From contig NZ_JALLGW010000001.1 of assembly GCF_023074835.1 (NCBI RefSeq), positions 1,116,001 through 1,180,000 on the forward strand: a DNA stretch of 64,000 bases. The letters run 5' to 3'. A program made the translations under genes and the position numbers. Shown here piece by piece: positions 1 to 7,497 of this stretch (positions are counted from its first letter, which is position 1; every line of letters starts with the position of its first letter). The notes beneath the pieces are model-generated. The model saw only the letters and a program-made list of their open reading frames with translations, was not told where the DNA came from and searched no databases. Origin of the DNA: Halomarina salina. Its GTDB lineage: Archaea; Halobacteriota; Halobacteria; Halobacteriales; Haloarculaceae.

Positions 1-730
1 GTACGCGGAGGACGGCGTCGTCCAGCGGGCGATGCGCGACGTGACGAGCGAGACGGACGCGTACGTCGTCGGCGACGTCTGCCTCTGCGAGTACACGAGC
101 CACGGCCACTGTGGCGTCGTCGAGGACCACGCGGCCGAGGACCCGACGCTCACCGTGAAGAACGACGAGACGCTCGACCTGCTCGCGCGCACGGCCGTCT
201 CGCAGGCCGACGCGGGAGCCGACATGGTCGCGCCCTCCAGCATGACCGACGGGATGGTCGGCGCGATTCGGGAGGCACTCGACGCCGCGGGCCACGACGA
301 CGTGGCTATCATGAGCTACGCAGCGAAGTACGAGTCGGCGTTCTACGGCCCGTTCCGCGACGCGGCCGACGGCGCGCCCGCGTTCGGCGACCGGCGACAC
401 TACCAGATGGACCCCGCGAACGCCCGCGAGGCGATGCGCGAGGTCCGCCTCGACGTCGAACAGGGCGCGGACGTGCTGATGGTGAAACCGGCGCTGCCCT
501 ACCTCGACGTCGTCAGCGACGTCCGCCGGGAGTTCGACCACCCCGTCGCGGCGTACAACGTCTCCGGGGAGTACGCGATGCTCCACGCGGCGGCCGAGAA
601 GGGCTGGCTGGACCTCGACGCGGCCGCCCGCGAGTCGCTGCTCTCCATCAAGCGCGCCGGTGCCGACCTCATCCTGACGTACTTCGCAGAAAGCGTTGCC
701 GCAACGCTTTCTGCGGACAGTCGGACGTAG
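1..730 (+). CDS. hemB: Delta-aminolevulinic acid dehydratase (porphobilinogen synthase), 3' part
   Basis: Condenses two 5-aminolevulinate molecules to porphobilinogen in cytosolic tetrapyrrole synthesis. The reading frame is open from base 2 and the 5' part lies outside the window. Visible are the Cys-rich metal site ([13 protein letters not shown]), the first active-site Lys ([14 protein letters not shown]) and the Schiff-base Lys ([10 protein letters not shown]). The normal enzyme end is near LILTYFAE. The last residues ([14 protein letters not shown]) come from the first copy of a 57-bp tandem repeat that continues past the stop, so the C-terminus was probably replaced by repeat sequence. 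Other heme genes (hemL, hemC, hemD) lie downstream, separated from hemB by the ammonium cassettes. Confidence 0.95.
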
Positions 731-853
731 TCCGACGCTTTTGCCGAGAGCGTAACGGCATCGCTCTCGGCAACCAGCCAGACGTAGTCTGGCGACTTCG
801 CGGAGAGCGTCGCGTCGTCGCTCTCGACGGACAGCCGGACGTAGTTCGGCGAC
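683..853 (+). repeat. Three-copy 57-bp tandem repeat with paired hairpins over the hemB stop
   Basis: Copies lie at 683-739, 740-796 and 797-853. Each holds a longer hairpin A (686-714, 743-771, 803-825) and a 7-bp hairpin B with a GTA loop (720-736, 777-793, 834-850). Stem bases differ between copies but pairing is kept: for example the A arm AGAAAGCG pairs with CGCTTTCT in copy 1, while CGAGAGCG pairs with CGCTCTCG in copy 2. Each copy carries an in-frame TAG at the same place, and the first is the hemB stop. The covariation suggests selection on a folded RNA or DNA form. The role is unknown; a 3'-end or termination/stability element is possible. Confidence 0.85.
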
Positions 854-1122
854 GAGACGGGAGCGCCGGCGTTCCCGACGTGCGGAGTCGCACTCGGGGG
901 TGCCGGCACCGAGACGGTTCGGCGAACGTCCACTCCTCACTCCCCCGTCGACCGGGTGGCCGCCTCCCGATTCCACCGACGCTAGCTTCGATTCGCCACT
1001 GGCTGTCGGCAAAAAAATAGACGTTCCCCCCGCGCACACCCCCGGAAGCCGACCGATTGGCAACATTTACACTGGACGGCTGTCGGGAAACCCTCCCGAC
1101 GAACGTCTCGTTCTCCGACGAA

Positions 1123-1313
1123 GTACAACCTTATATTCGTAATGTTGTTGGCTATATTGGACGCTCGGCGCTCGTATCGACGATAAACTGGCGAATATCA
1201 AGCAAGGTTTTATCTAATGCCATTCCATGCCATTCGGCCGTGACTCAGATGACAAACGCAAGCGAATTCGCGTGGAACGTGGACGATAGTGTACTGGAAC
1301 GCGGGGGTGCGCT
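1123..1313 (+). promoter_or_regulatory. Upstream control region of amt1, duplicated before amt2
   Basis: Block A (1123-1163, containing CTTATATTCGTAATG) matches 3579-3619 with 4 mismatches in 41 bases. A TATA-like TTTTAT (1208-1213) aligns exactly with TTAT at 3666-3669. Block B (1222-1260) contains ATTCCATGC, CGTGA and ACAAACGCA, all at the same spacing as in the second cassette (offset always 2456). Transcription probably starts near the GTG at 1240, 30 nt after the TATA-like box, with block A as an upstream regulator site at about -117 to -77. An alternative is that CTTATATT in block A is itself a TATA box. The rest of 854-1122 shows no gene. Confidence 0.7.
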
Positions 1314-1317
1314 GTGA
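1240..1317 (+). CDS. Small 25-codon ORF coupled to amt1 (leader peptide or small protein)
   Basis: It starts with GTG, 30 nt after the TATA-like box, which is the layout of a leaderless haloarchaeal mRNA. Its TGA overlaps the amt1 start as GTGA. The predicted peptide has TNA at residues 5-7, W12, V14, L19 and GG at 22-23, all shared with the equivalent ORF before amt2 (9 of 25 identities, same length, same start position). A GGGGGTG sequence before the amt start can serve as a ribosome binding site for the transporter. Function is unknown: it may be a coupling or attenuator ORF or a small regulator. A downstream ATG at 1249 would give 22 residues. Confidence 0.45.
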   Translation: MTQMTNASEFAWNVDDSVLERGGAL

Positions 1318-2675
1318 CGCTCCTGCTCCCCCTCCAGGGCGACGTGACGCAGGTGGCCGACGCGGTCAGCGCGGTGTGGGTGCTGACGGTGTCGTTCCTC
1401 ATCTTCTTCATGCAGCCGGGGTTCGCGCTGCTGGAGGCCGGACAGGTGCGGGCGAAGAACGCCGGCAACGTCGTGATGAAGAACATGACCGACTGGTCGA
1501 TGGGCGTCATCGTGTTCTTCCTCGCCGGCGCGGGGATATCGACCATCGCCGCGGCGCTGACCGCCTCCGGCACGTCGCTGGACATCGCCGGGGCGTTCGC
1601 GTACATCGACGAGCCGAGCGGGTGGGTCAGCTGGCTGTTCGGTGCGGTGTTCGCCATGACCGCGGCCACCATCGTCTCGGGGGCCGTCGCGGAGCGGATG
1701 AAGTTCTCCGCCTACGTCGTCTACGCCGTCGCCATGACGGCGGTCATCTACCCCGTCATCGCGGGCTTCGCGTGGGGCGGCGGTCTGCTGTCGGCCGACG
1801 GCTTCCTCGGGGCGGCCATCGGGGTCGGCTACAAGGACTTCGCGGGGGCGACGGTCGTCCACGCTCTGGGTGGCATCGCCGGGCTGACCGCGGCGTACGT
1901 CGTCGGCCCACGTCGCGGCCGGTACGACAGTAAGGGGAAGGCCCAGCCGATTCCGGGCCACAGCGTGCTGTTCGCCGTCATCGGGACGCTCATCCTCGCG
2001 TTCGGCTGGTACGGCTTCAACGTCGGGACGCAGGGCGTCCTCTCCGACGGGCAGTTCATGGGCGAGGCGCTCGGCCGCGTCGCCCTCAACACGACGCTCG
2101 CGATGGGGGCCGGGATGCTGGCCTCCTCGCTCGTCAGCTACTACATCGAGGGGAAACCGGACCCGCTGTTCGCCGCGAACGGCCTGCTCGCCGGTCTCGT
2201 CGCCATCACCGGGGCGTGCGCCCACGTCACCTGGTGGGGCGGCATCCTCATCGGTCTCATCGGCGGCGCGCAGACCCCGCTGGTCTACCGCTGGGTGGTC
2301 GACAACCTGAAGATCGACGACGTCTGTGGCGTCTTCGCGGTCCACGGCAGCGCGGGGTTCATCGGCACGATGCTCATCCCGTTCTTCGACGTGGCGGGCT
2401 TCTCGACGGCGCAGCTCGTGATGCAGGTCGCGGGCTCGGTCGTCATCGCCGGCTGGACGGTGCTGACGACGCTCGTCGTCATGTACGCCCTGAAGTACAC
2501 CATCGGCGTGCGCGTCTCCGACGAGGAGGAGGAACTGGGCCTGGACCTCGGCGAGCACGGTCTCGCGACCTACCCCGAGTTCACGGCCGACTCCGGCTCG
2601 TCGCCCATCACCGACGGCGGCGACGTCCGTACGGATGGCGGCGACGTGCGCACCGACGGAGGTGAGGACGAATGA
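1314..2675 (+). CDS. amt1: Ammonium transporter (Amt family)
   Basis: Membrane channel-type transporter of NH4+/NH3, 453 residues, with a GTG start overlapping the preceding small ORF. The Amt fold of about 11 membrane segments is recognisable from [13 protein letters not shown], the two pore histidines ([11 protein letters not shown] and FAVHGSAGF) and [11 protein letters not shown]. The C-terminus ends in a 21-bp DNA repeat encoding TDGGDVR-type units (2611-2671). The stop overlaps the glnK1 start (ATGA), so the channel and its PII regulator are translationally coupled. This is the usual arrangement, since PII proteins plug Amt pores when nitrogen is sufficient. Confidence 0.96.
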
Positions 2676-3034
2676 GCGCCGCGAACGAGGGCGAGGTGAA
2701 ACTCGTCGTGGCGTACATCCGGCCCGACAAACTCAGCGCGGTCAAGCAGGCGCTGGTGGACGTCGGCGCGCCGTCCATCTCGGTGACGAACGTCTCCGGT
2801 CGCGGCTCGCAGCCGGCCCGCAAGGGCCAGTACCGCGGCGAGGAGTACATCGTCGACCTGCACCAGAAGGTGAAGGTGGAGTGCTTCGTCGCCGAGGTTC
2901 CGGCCGACGAGGTGGCGGAGGCCATCGTCGAGGCGGCGAAGACGGGCGATCCCGGTGACGGGAAGGTGTTCGTCATGCCCGTCGAGAGCGCCCACCAGAT
3001 CCGCACCGGGACGACGGGTGTCGACGCCGTCTGA
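2672..3034 (+). CDS. glnK: Nitrogen regulatory protein PII (GlnK type)
   Basis: Trimeric PII signal protein, 120 residues, that senses ATP/ADP and 2-oxoglutarate and blocks Amt. The N-terminal strand [12 protein letters not shown], the T-loop with the conserved Tyr ([15 protein letters not shown]) and the nucleotide loop [14 protein letters not shown] are all present. The first 8 residues are an acidic extension. It overlaps amt1 by 4 bases and is followed after 2 bases by the Lrp-like gene, so the three form one operon. The T-loop Tyr would allow covalent modification, but no modifying enzyme gene is in the window. Confidence 0.96.
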
Positions 3035-3036
3035 CC

Positions 3037-3459
3037 GTGTCCGGTTCGCTCGGCGACTCGTCGACCGACGAGGGTGAGGACATCCGGGGGCTCGACCTCG
3101 TCGCTCCCGACGACCTGCGCGAGCGACTCGCCGCGGCCGAGCTCTCGGGTGCGGTCGTCGGCTACGCCCCTCGCATCGACTACGACGAACTCGGGATGCG
3201 GACCGTCATCACCCGCGTCCTCGCCCGCGAGTCGTGCGTCGAGGACGTCGCCATGGACCTCCGCGGCCGGAACGTCTCCGACGTGTACGTCGTCACGGGC
3301 GAGTACAACATCGTCGCAATCGGACGGTTCGTCGGGGAGGGCGCGTTCGACGCGTTCCTCTCCCGACTGGCGACCGACGACCGCGTGCTGAGCGTGACCG
3401 CGACCGTCACGCTCGACACCGTCTGCGAGTACGACACGGTCGGATTCCTGGAGGAGTGA
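3037..3459 (+). CDS. Lrp/AsnC-type ligand-binding protein with a degenerate HTH region
   Basis: A 140-residue protein with a GTG start 2 bases after glnK1. From about residue 40 it resembles the Lrp/AsnC family: the linker SGAVVGYAPRIDYDELG, then a RAM-type ligand domain with a GxY-like turn (TGEYNIVAIGRF) and VLSVTATVTLDTV. The N-terminal 35-40 residues are acidic and show only the last helix-like part (DDLRERLAAAELSG) of the usual winged helix. It may therefore bind an effector and oligomerise with full-length Lrp proteins without binding DNA itself. Its place in the amt1 operon points to nitrogen or amino-acid sensing, which is inference. Confidence 0.75.
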   Translation: MSGSLGDSSTDEGEDIRGLDLVAPDDLRERLAAAELSGAVVGYAPRIDYDELGMRTVITRVLARESCVEDVAMDLRGRNVSDVYVVTGEYNIVAIGRFVGEGAFDAFLSRLATDDRVLSVTATVTLDTVCEYDTVGFLEE

Positions 3460-3578
3460 CGGGCACGCTCGGGTGCCCGAACGGCACGCGCGCACCCCCG
3501 AAAACTGGGTGTTCGGCAACTCTTGCGCTGACCGTTCGTCGGGTTTTCGCCGGACATACGACGAAAAATCTGGGGATA

Positions 3579-3769
3579 GTACGACCTTATATTCGTAATG
3601 TTGTGGGCTATTCTGGACGAACGCCGCCGAGAGCGGGGAATTTTTTGTGTTCCTTGAGCACACGCTTATGTGGGTGGATTCCATGCGGATGTGACGTGAT
3701 GCGGATTACAAACGCACCAAAATCACGCTGGATTGTTGGGGGAACGGAACTTCGGAACGGGGGTGACAG
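3579..3769 (+). promoter_or_regulatory. Upstream control region of the amt2-glnK2 fusion, paralogous to that of amt1
   Basis: Block A is at 3579-3619, the TATA-like TTAT at 3666-3669 and block B at 3678-3716 (ATTCCATGC, CGTGA, ACAAACGCA). All three sit at the same distance from the start codon as in the amt1 leader. Sequence between the blocks has diverged, so the conserved parts are likely functional. A GGGGGTG before the amt2 ATG (3760-3766) is a probable ribosome binding site shared with amt1. The preceding part of the gap (3460-3578) holds no recognisable gene. Confidence 0.7.
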
Positions 3770-3773
3770 ATGA
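3696..3773 (+). CDS. Small 25-codon ORF coupled to amt2 (paralogue of the one before amt1)
   Basis: GTG start exactly 30 nt after the TATA-like TTAT and aligned with the GTG at 1240. The TGA overlaps the amt2 ATG as ATGA. The peptide shares TNA (5-7), W12, V14, L19 and GG (22-23) with its paralogue. An ATG directly follows the GTG and could be the real start. The same length, start, stop overlap and residues in two diverged copies support translation. The product's role is unknown. Confidence 0.45.
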
Positions 3774-5458
3774 GCGTCGCGATGCAGGCGGACGTCGCGG
3801 CCATCGCCGACAGTATCAACGCGGTGTGGGTGCTGACGGTCACCTTCCTCATCTTCTTCATGCACGCCGGGTTCGCCATGCTGGAGGCGGGGCAGGTCCG
3901 CTCGAAGAACGTCGCCAACCAGCTGACGAAGAACATGCTGACGTGGAGCGTCGGCGTGACGGTGTTCTTCCTCGTCGGACAGGGCGTCGGGAACGTCGTC
4001 GGCGGGAACGCCGCCCCGTTCGGCTACGTCAACGACCCGAACGCGTGGGTCGGCTGGCTGTTCGGTGCGGTGTTCGCCATGACGGCCGCCACCATCGTCT
4101 CCGGGGCGGTGGCGGGCCGGGCGAAACTGCGCGCGTACGTCACCTACACCATCGTCCTGGCGGCGGTCATCTACCCGGTCGTCCTCGGGTTCACGTGGGC
4201 CGGGTCGGGTCTGCTCTCCGCCGACGGCTTCCTCGGCACGACGTTCGGGGCCGGCTTCGGCGACTTCGCGGGCGGCATGATCGTCCACGGGATGGGCGGC
4301 ATCGCCGGCCTGACCGCGGCGTGGATCCTCGGCCCGCGGCTCAACCGGTTCAACGAGGACGGGTCGGTCAACGTCATCCCCGGCCACTCCATCACGTTCG
4401 CGGTGCTGGGGACGCTGCTGCTCTGCTTCGGCTGGTACGGCTTCAACGTCGGCACGCAGGCGACCATCCTCGACCCGGAGACGGGCGAGTTCATGGGCGC
4501 GGCGCTCGGCCGCGTCGCGCTGACGACGACGCTCGGGATGGCCGCCGGGGCCATCGGCGCGAGCGCGTTCTCGCTGTACAAGACCGGCAAGGTCGACACG
4601 CTGTACGTCGCCAACGGGATGCTCGCGGGTCTCGTCGGCATCACGTCGAACACCAACGCCATCGTCTGGTGGGCCGCACCCATCATCGGCTTCCTCGCGG
4701 GTGCGCAGCTCCCGCTCGTGTTCGGCTTCGTCGAGAAGCGCCTGCACATCGACGACGTCTGTGCGGTGTTCCCGGTCCACGGGAGCGCGGGCGTCCTCGG
4801 GGCGCTCCTCCTGCCGTTCTTCACGGTCGGTGAGGCCGGCGGCTGGGTCATCAGCACCGACCTCATCCTCCCGCAGGTCGTCGGCGTGCTGGTCATCGCC
4901 GGGTGGACGATTCTCGCCACGGCGGCCGTGTTCGGCGCGCTCAAGGCCGTCGGGCAAGCGCGGGTCACGCGCGAACACGAACTCGAAGGGCTCGACATCG
5001 CCGAACACGGCGTGGAGACGTACCCCGAGTTCGGCATCGGCGAGGAACCCGTCAGCACCAGCGTCCGCACCGACGGCGGCGTGGTCCGCTCGGACGGTGG
5101 CGCACCCAACCGGGGAGGCATCAAGATGGTCGTCGCGTACATCCGGCCCGACCGGCTGAGTGCGGTCAAGCAGTCGCTGGTCGAGGCCGGAGCGCCCTCC
5201 ATCACGGTGACGAACGTCTCCGGCCGTGGCTCGCAGCCTGCGAAGAAGGGCCAGTGGCGCGGCGAGGAGTACGTCGTCGACCTGCACCAGAAGGTGAAGA
5301 TAGAGTGCGTCGTCGCCGAGATTCCCGCCGAGGACGTCGCCACCGCCATCCGCGATGCGGCGATGACCGGCGAGAAGGGCGACGGGAAGGTGTTCGTCAT
5401 GCCCGTCGAGCAGGCGCTCCAGATTCGCACCGGGACGTCCGGCGTCGACGCGGTCTGA
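3770..5458 (+). CDS. amt2-glnK2: Ammonium transporter fused to a PII (GlnK) domain
   Basis: Single 562-residue frame. Residues 1 to about 430 form an Amt transporter with pore histidines in [12 protein letters not shown] and [11 protein letters not shown]. Residues about 430-452 are a Gly/Asp linker ([12 protein letters not shown]) like the tail of Amt1. Residues 453-562 are a complete PII domain ([12 protein letters not shown]-loop [15 protein letters not shown], loop [14 protein letters not shown]). The fusion looks like loss of the stop between an ancestral amt-glnK pair such as the neighbouring cassette. It tethers one PII subunit per Amt subunit, giving a trimer on a trimer. The ATG is chosen because of the leader alignment and GGGGGTG upstream. 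Confidence 0.93.
5112..5128 (+). promoter_or_regulatory. Internal Shine-Dalgarno and in-frame ATG able to start free GlnK2
   Basis: GGGGAGG at 5112-5118, then 7 bases, then ATG at 5126-5128, in frame with the fusion (codon 453). Starting here would give a 110-residue free GlnK beginning MVVAYIRP, which is where stand-alone GlnK proteins begin. The Gly-Gly codons of the linker could also explain the G-rich run, but such a close match at the exact domain start suggests one mRNA gives both tethered and free PII. Confidence 0.5.
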
Positions 5459-5574
5459 GCACACTCACACTCCCAGCACGTCCCCGCCTGCTTCTCCTCC
5501 CGTCTCGTCGCTGCCTTCCGACTGTATCCTCGCGGGCGAACAGTTATGTTCGATTGGTAGTCACGTAGCCATGA

Positions 5575-6066
5575 ATGAGGGAACGGCAGATGTGGAAGCG
5601 GTTGGCTGCTCTCCAGAACCAGGTCCCTCGGGTGACCGACGACCCGCCGAGACCGACCGACAGCGTCGACTGGCGGGCAGTGATGCTCGGTGTCCTCGTG
5701 GCACTGACCTTCGGTTGTCTCGCGTTCACGAACGTCCTCGGCGAGGGGGTCGTCCCCCTCGCTCTCCTCGCCCCAGGCGTCGTCGTCGGCCTGTTCGTCC
5801 GGAAGGGCCGGGCGGTCCTCGACGACGCGGCCGTCGCGGGGTTCGGCACCATCTTCGGCCTCACGGTCGCGAACATCGCCCTCGGGTCGACGGCGCTCCC
5901 CTGGGTCCTCGTCGACCCGCAGAGCGTCGTCGGGGCGTTCGCGGCGCTCCTGTTCGCGGCGCTCGCGGGCGTGCCGGTGCTCGTCCTCGGCACCGTCGCC
6001 GTCGCGGGTGTCGTCGCGTACGCCCGTCGGCAGTTCCTCGCCGGGGTCCGCGCCGGTCGCTCGTGA
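5575..6066 (+). CDS. Integral membrane protein of unknown function
   Basis: 163 residues with an acidic/polar N-terminal 30 residues, then about four hydrophobic segments (around 34-54, 58-74, 84-105 and 120-148), and a short basic end. It resembles small haloarchaeal multi-pass membrane proteins, but I cannot assign a function. Two ATGs at 5571 and 5575 lie close together and only the second is in this frame; an ATG at 5590 is an alternative. It lies 116 bases after amt2-glnK2 and 84 bases before hemL on the same strand. Confidence 0.7.
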   Translation: MRERQMWKRLAALQNQVPRVTDDPPRPTDSVDWRAVMLGVLVALTFGCLAFTNVLGEGVVPLALLAPGVVVGLFVRKGRAVLDDAAVAGFGTIFGLTVANIALGSTALPWVLVDPQSVVGAFAALLFAALAGVPVLVLGTVAVAGVVAYARRQFLAGVRAGRS

Positions 6067-6150
6067 CGACCTCTCGCCTCTCTGTCTCGCTCTGGTCCCG
6101 GGATGTCGTCACTCAGTAACCTCCTTACCACGTCCGGGAGAACCGCCCCT

Positions 6151-7497
6151 ATGGCTCGCAATCGCGAGAACTCTCGCGCGCTGTACGACCGGGCGCTCTC
6201 GGTCATGCCCGCCGGCGTCAACTCCTCGGTCCGGGCGACCCAGCCGTACCCGACGTTCGTCCGGTCGGGCGACGGCGCGCACGTCATCGACCACGACGGC
6301 AACCGCTACCTCGACTACGTGATGGGCTACGGGCCGCTCCTGCTCGGCCACGACATGCCCGAGTCGGTCGCCGCGGCGGTCCAGCGCGCCGCCAGCGAGG
6401 GGCCGATGTACGGCGCACCCACCGAGGTCGAGGTCGACCTCGCGGAGTTCGTCGTCCGGCACGTCCCGAGCGTGGAGATGATCCGCTTCGTCAACTCGGG
6501 GACCGAGGCGACCGTCTCGGCCGTCCGCCTCGCCCGCGGCCACACCGGCCGGAACAAGATCGTCGTCATGCAGGGCGGCTACCACGGTGCCCAGGAGTCG
6601 ACGCTCGTCGAGGGCGACGCCGAGCACCCGCGCCCGTCGACCAGCGGCATCCCCCAGTCGTTCGCCGAGCACACGCTCCCCGTCCCGTTCAACGACGAGG
6701 AGGCGCTCCGCGAGGTGTTCGAGCGCCACGGCGACGACATCGCCTGCGTGCTGACCGAACCCATCCTCGGCAACTCGGGCATCGTGATGCCCGAGGAGGG
6801 CTATCACGAGGCCATCCGGGAGACCTGCGACGAGTACGGCGCGCTGTACGTCCTCGACGAGGTCATCACGGGGTTCCGCGTCGGCGGCCTGGGCTGCGCC
6901 CAGGGGAAGTTCGGCGTCACGCCCGACGTCACGACGTTCGGCAAGATCGTCGGCGGTGGGTTCCCGGTCGGCGCTATCGGCGGGAGAAGCGAGATCATCG
7001 AGCAGTTCTCGCCGTCGGGCGACGTCTTCCAGTCGGGGACGTTCTCGGGCCACCCCGTCACGATGGCGGCGGGCCTCGCCACGCTGGAGTTCTGCGCCGA
7101 GAACGACGTCTACGACCACGTGAACGCGCTCGGCGAGCGGTTGCGCGAGGGACTGACCGACATCGTCGCCGACCGCGCGCCCGAGTACACCGTCGTCGGG
7201 ACGGACTCGATGTTCAAGGTCGTCTTCGGCCGGGCGAACACCGGCCCGCAGAGCGACTGCTGTTCGGCCGGGTGTCGGCAGGACCCGACGTGCGAGCGCT
7301 CCCCCGACTGCCCGAAGACGGGGGCCGACGTGGCCGACGGCGAGACGCAGCGCTGGGACCGGCTGTTCCGGCCGTTCATGGAGGAGCAGGGCATCCTGCT
7401 TCCCGCGAACCAGATGGAGAGCCAGTTCGTCAGCTACGCCCACACCGAAGCCGACATCGAGGAGACGCTGGAGGCCTACGAGGCGTTCTTCTCGTAG
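6151..7497 (+). CDS. hemL: Glutamate-1-semialdehyde 2,1-aminomutase
   Basis: PLP enzyme making 5-aminolevulinate from glutamate-1-semialdehyde (C5 pathway), 448 residues. The start [16 protein letters not shown] was chosen by family N-termini; an upstream ATG at 6103 would add 16 residues unlike the family. The PLP Lys is K265 ([10 protein letters not shown]) and D236 is in [10 protein letters not shown] Cys-rich insert (C370, C371, C375, C381, C387) lies in the C-terminal domain before the conserved [10 protein letters not shown]. That insert is unlike bacterial HemL and could bind a metal. It feeds HemB, encoded at the window's left edge. Confidence 0.96.

Follow-up and report, generated by a model that had tools for sequence, protein, structure and literature searches.

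In the textbook example of a transporter blocked by a freely diffusing sensor, GlnK plugs the ammonium transporter AmtB. In the stretch of Halomarina salina DNA analysed here (64,000 nucleotides, hereafter the window), an ammonium transporter (Amt) and a PII protein of the GlnK type share one gene. Is the sensor permanently tied to its channel at this locus, and is it also made as a free protein from an internal start, as an initial annotation of the sequence had proposed?

One reading frame encodes a complete transporter and a complete PII domain

On the forward strand, the gene is read as a single uninterrupted frame of 562 codons that runs from an Amt domain through a linker into a PII (GlnK) domain (Table 1). 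The Amt part matches PF00909 (Ammonium_transp) over the entire profile (1-399 of 399; E = 8e-93, 311.7 bits for a cut-off of 23.2), and the C-terminal part matches PF00543 (P-II) as a full PII domain (E = 2e-23, 83 bits for a cut-off of 25). The in-frame fusion of PII to the Amt C-terminus through a Gly/Asp linker, as initially annotated, is thus borne out by one frame with both Pfam domains complete; the permanent tethering of PII to the channel is likewise supported at the sequence level, by the complete domains and by a frame that is widely kept unbroken.

Table 1. Coordinates of the fused gene, its parts and the neighbouring pair (positions in the window).
Feature	Position	Strand	Basis or remark
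amt1, separate Amt, paralogue in the second deep clade (B)	1314..2675	+	Pfam, tree
GGAGGTGAG, strong Shine-Dalgarno (SD) sequence before glnK1 (overlapping ATGA stop/start)	2658..2666	+	
glnK1, separate PII protein, 120 aa	2672..3034	+	Pfam
Fused amt-glnK gene, 562 aa	3770..5458	+	Stop TGA 5456-5458; fused orthologues conserved
Ammonium transporter (Amt) domain, residues 19-418	3824..5023	+	Pfam PF00909, alignment, fold match to Amt structures
Flexible linker, residues 422-450 (29 residues)	5033..5119	+	Predicted disordered
SD-like GGGGAGG, codons for Arg-Gly-Gly	5112..5118	+	Judged a chance match
PII/GlnK domain, residues 452-555	5123..5434	+	Pfam PF00543; closest solved relative Haloferax (Hfx.) mediterranei GlnK2 (4OZJ)
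Proposed internal ATG, Met453 of the first PII strand	5126..5128	+	

In alignments, the Amt domain keeps the Phe gate (F102/F225), the selectivity-filter Trp (W143), the twin His (H173/H337) and the C-terminal motif. The pore residues are identical across all 177 haloarchaeal Amts compared, the Ser of the filter being replaced by Thr. The T-loop, GDGK and QIRTG motifs of the PII domain are intact as well, and comparison with separate GlnKs yielded no strong or convincing fusion-specific PII residue. A T-loop Trp, which is Tyr in glnK1, was considered as a mark of the fusion and dropped, being present in most separate haloarchaeal GlnKs examined.

An AlphaFold model of a single chain, built with 32 fused orthologues (mean pLDDT 75.7), comprises a helical Amt fold, a disordered segment (410-444, pLDDT < 50) and a PII fold whose T-loop is flexible. 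Structurally, it is best matched by Amt proteins, among them the AmtB chains of AmtB-GlnK complexes; the best match of its tail is Hfx. mediterranei GlnK2. This GlnK2 shares the N-terminal PNDGGIK segment, the T-loop and the C-terminus with the fused PII, but it is soluble and free, and has a start of its own.

The neighbouring amt1-glnK1 pair had been taken for the ancestral arrangement. The pair does display the separate-gene layout, but it is not the ancestor of the fusion: amt1 and the fused Amt are 59% identical and belong to different deep clades of the Amt tree, which rules out such a descent and makes amt1 a deep paralogue.

The fusion is widespread among haloarchaea and has changed state many times

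The gene is certainly a real and widespread domain fusion. A search for the fused architecture in haloarchaeal genomes, which the initial annotation had suggested, recovered it as one uninterrupted gene in at least 142 of the 391 genomes with a completeness of at least 90% that were sampled from the order. In a direct genome scan, fused relatives occur in dozens of named genera, the nearest named ones being Halomarina species. Within Halomarina, the fusion is unbroken in seven genomes, including that of the window; in an eighth (73% complete), the Amt part meets a contig end and PII lies on another contig. An artefact of sequencing or assembly is refuted as the cause of the join, the same unbroken fusion being present in more than 140 independently assembled species, and its probability is close to nil. 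Outside the haloarchaea, no fusion was found among the PII matches listed for a 119-genome sample of one phylum, and we found no description of an Amt-PII fusion in openly accessible papers.

In at least 24 genomes of the same family (completeness of at least 94%), the fusion is the sole PF00543 match, a count that leaves remote PII-like families aside. Glutamine synthetase is present in all 24.

In most haloarchaea examined, hemB and hemL flank the amt(-glnK) locus, be it fused or separate (1-7497 in the window; loci L065, L071 and L131 are examples), and since both versions occupy this same site, many are likely orthologous. The locus of the window also encodes a small protein (3037-3459, forward strand) whose Lrp/AsnC ligand-binding domain falls just under the Pfam cut-off (24.2 vs 25 bits) and in which no DNA-binding domain is recognised; homologues of this protein adjoin many amt-glnK loci.

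A tree of 177 Amt domains contains two deep clades: A, with 107 fused and 38 separate members, and B, where two of 32 Amts are fused (L188 and L189). The fused or separate state changes at least 19 times on this tree, of which at least eight changes are forced by well-supported branches; the tree is a quick one with one support value, on which the direction of each change is not readable, and a few of the rows scored as separate may be contig breaks. Apparent fusions are also seen in genus g36 (G161 and G182), where a single frame of 613-665 residues covers both PII and Amt. With fusions in clade B and apparently in this genus, the fusion must have arisen more than once or been lost very often. 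Two positions of the ammonium site known from Ks-Amt5, an Amt-histidine kinase, separate the clades completely: they are His/Thr in A (145/145) and Gln/Asp in B (32/32).

The proposed internal start is most likely a chance match

The GGGGAGG run does lie seven bases ahead of an in-frame ATG, as annotated. Stand-alone GlnK does not, however, begin at this ATG: the start of GlnK1 lies 10 codons further upstream, and in 70 separate haloarchaeal GlnKs the start precedes the site by a median of 9 codons (range 5-21). The Met encoded by the ATG is already residue three of the first PII strand, so that a product initiated here would miss the first residues of that strand.

The SD-like run is not conserved in orthologues, an outcome that the initial annotation had named as refuting its proposal. 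Among 86 distinct fused genes, the window gene alone carries GGAGG at the site (1/86), where 2.9 would be expected from synonymous shuffles and codon usage; the motif is missing from all six other intact Halomarina fused genes, three of which have CTC in place of the ATG. The codon itself varies: ATG in 61, CTC in 17, CTG in 6 and TTG in 2 of the 86 distinct genes and, over all 109 fused genes, ATG in 82 and a Leu codon (CTC, CTG or TTG) in 27. The equivalent position is ATG in 42 of 76 separate GlnKs, and as these start several codons earlier, Met is just one of two residues tolerated in the first strand.

Pairing with the 16S tail gave the same picture in a test that covers SD-type starts. 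Mean pairing at the site is -4.8 kcal/mol (-5.4 expected from synonymous shuffles), and 8% of the synonymous versions of the window peptide pair as strongly as the actual sequence, so the run is not beyond chance. A strong in-frame start (ATG, GTG or TTG) anywhere in the linker was found in 6 of 109 fused genes, vs 10.5 expected from synonymous shuffles. As a positive control, strong SD pairing was recovered at 64 of 70 true starts of separate glnK genes (mean -12.2).

Could ribosomes nevertheless initiate at the ATG through GGGGAGG and yield a free PII of ~110 residues beside the full-length chain? The window's own run has a duplex energy of -10.1 kcal/mol, and an internal in-frame start has precedent in haloarchaea with Cas11b of Hfx. 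volcanii (PMC11899642). Nevertheless, the conserved start codon and signal to be expected of a Cas8b/Cas11b-type start are lacking in the fused orthologues. Moreover, the haloarchaeal SD serves termination-reinitiation, as opposed to de novo initiation (PMC6728339); it acts where ribosomes reinitiate behind an upstream stop, a codon that the fusion lacks. Finally, the adjacent glnK1 already encodes a free GlnK, so the fusion is not needed as its source. Dual translation, which was to provide both gated and free PII, is thus unsupported, with an unconserved SD-like run and internal start signals no commoner than in synonymous shuffles, and we regard it as very improbable. The GGGGAGG-ATG arrangement is most likely a chance match; an SD gained solely in this species is a possible reading. 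At this gene, PII is encoded solely as part of the fusion, with no conserved internal start.

The fused protein as a probable tethered plug for its own transporter

For the E. coli AmtB-GlnK complex, a plugging model is established in which T-loops sit in the pores and 2-oxoglutarate and ATP bring about release. The complex (E. coli 2NUU/2NS1; Hfx. mediterranei AmtB1-GlnK) and the fusion have the same domains in the same order, with the same pore and T-loop motifs, and the haloarchaeal amtB-glnK genes are adjacent or overlapping; the fusion differs in being one covalent chain, from which PII cannot leave the membrane and in which its ratio to the channel is fixed at 1:1. The GlnK of Hfx. mediterranei associates with AmtB1 in membranes upon ammonium shock, and in vitro it activates glutamine synthetase (PMC3831643).

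We consider it probable (roughly 0.6) that PII in the fused gene product is a plug permanently tied to its own transporter and controlled by nucleotides and 2-oxoglutarate. One polypeptide would provide an Amt subunit and its own PII domain on a disordered linker of ~29 residues, and three such chains would build the usual Amt trimer, with one PII trimer from the three PII domains beneath. Under nitrogen excess, with little 2-oxoglutarate and more ADP, all three pores would be closed by the T-loops; a rise in 2-oxoglutarate and ATP would make PII release the channel but remain tethered, so that the plug would stay at very high local concentration and in a fixed 1:1 ratio. We infer trimer assembly, plugging and release, and the full-length chain as the sole product.

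The Amt domain scores higher against the solved sensors Ks-Amt5 (174 bits) and Sd-Amt1 (169 bits) than against E. coli AmtB (96 bits), and given this closeness transport by the fused protein is only presumed. Both sensors, Ks-Amt5 with its histidine kinase and Sd-Amt1, a receptor Amt of Shewanella denitrificans (entries of 644-661 residues), likewise carry an extra C-terminal cytoplasmic part; in the fusion, the attached part is PII, a pore-plugging sensor of 2-oxoglutarate, ATP and ADP. By analogy, the Amt domain might bind ammonium and signal to or through the tethered PII, as a receptor and not a transporter, which is consistent with these proteins being the closest solved relatives and with the invariance of the Ks-Amt5 ammonium-site residues E31, N47 and T109 in haloarchaeal Amts. 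Yet the complete site (Q24, E31, N47, D50, T51, T109, T112; site and pore-blocking residues from PMC5764959) reads H, E, N, T, W, T, S throughout the fused clade (145 members): D50, one of the two site acids, is always Thr, and Q24 is His. Of the bulky blockers, Y30 and F34 are Leu and Gln (two of the three pore-blocking residues are absent), every pore motif is retained, and the same features occur in the separate Amts of the clade; the Ks-Amt5 sensor signature is just partly present and unlinked to the fusion. With one site acid missing clade-wide and two of three pore blockers gone, we keep the receptor merely as a rival, and an unlikely one. Release of PII after translation, by a protease cutting the exposed Gly/Asp linker, would suit a linker that is predicted to be disordered and varies in length (17-73 residues, median 30, across 109 fused genes), and the 24 genomes that encode no other PII retain glutamine synthetase, which GlnK activates in Hfx. 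mediterranei (PMC3831643). However, no conserved cleavage motif was noticed in the linker, and its RTDGG repeats also occur in separate Amt tails, so we judge such cleavage to be rather improbable.

Elsewhere, PII is a mobile cytoplasmic hub. In much of the haloarchaea, it may be solely a membrane-tethered transporter domain, so that nitrogen signalling to glutamine synthetase would occur at the membrane or not at all, a proposal that we make tentatively. Species with the fusion as their only PII gene offer a direct route to the control of glutamine synthetase and other PII targets where PII has no gene of its own. More generally, a natural covalent version of AmtB-GlnK, repeatedly gained or lost at one conserved locus, is a built-in experiment on the purpose of free PII diffusion.

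The linker resembles an Amt tail joined to a GlnK N-terminus

Haloarchaeal separate Amts very often end with an RTDGG-rich tail, and separate GlnKs often start with MSDxxPNDGGIK. The linker of the fused genes combines both in the pattern ...RTDGG...PNDGGIK, its RTDGG portion resembling the tail of separate Amts and its (A)PN(D)GG portion the N-terminus of separate GlnKs. The linker would thus be an Amt tail joined to a GlnK N-terminus, with loss of the GlnK start. RTDGG repeats are general to haloarchaeal Amt C-terminal tails (2555-2672 in the window and other separate Amts) and are not a linker made for the fusion.

Stop and start overlap in 51 of 63 separate amt-glnK pairs. Overlapping genes of this kind are translationally coupled by termination-reinitiation in Haloferax (PMC6728339). 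From this gene order, the fusion may be seen as the extreme, or end point, of the overlapping and translationally coupled haloarchaeal amt-glnK pair. In six genomes of genus g56 (G418, G410, G286, G365, G408 and G341), one continuous match spans the amt and glnK frames, which are separated by just one stop codon; these could be either near-fusions or recent splits.
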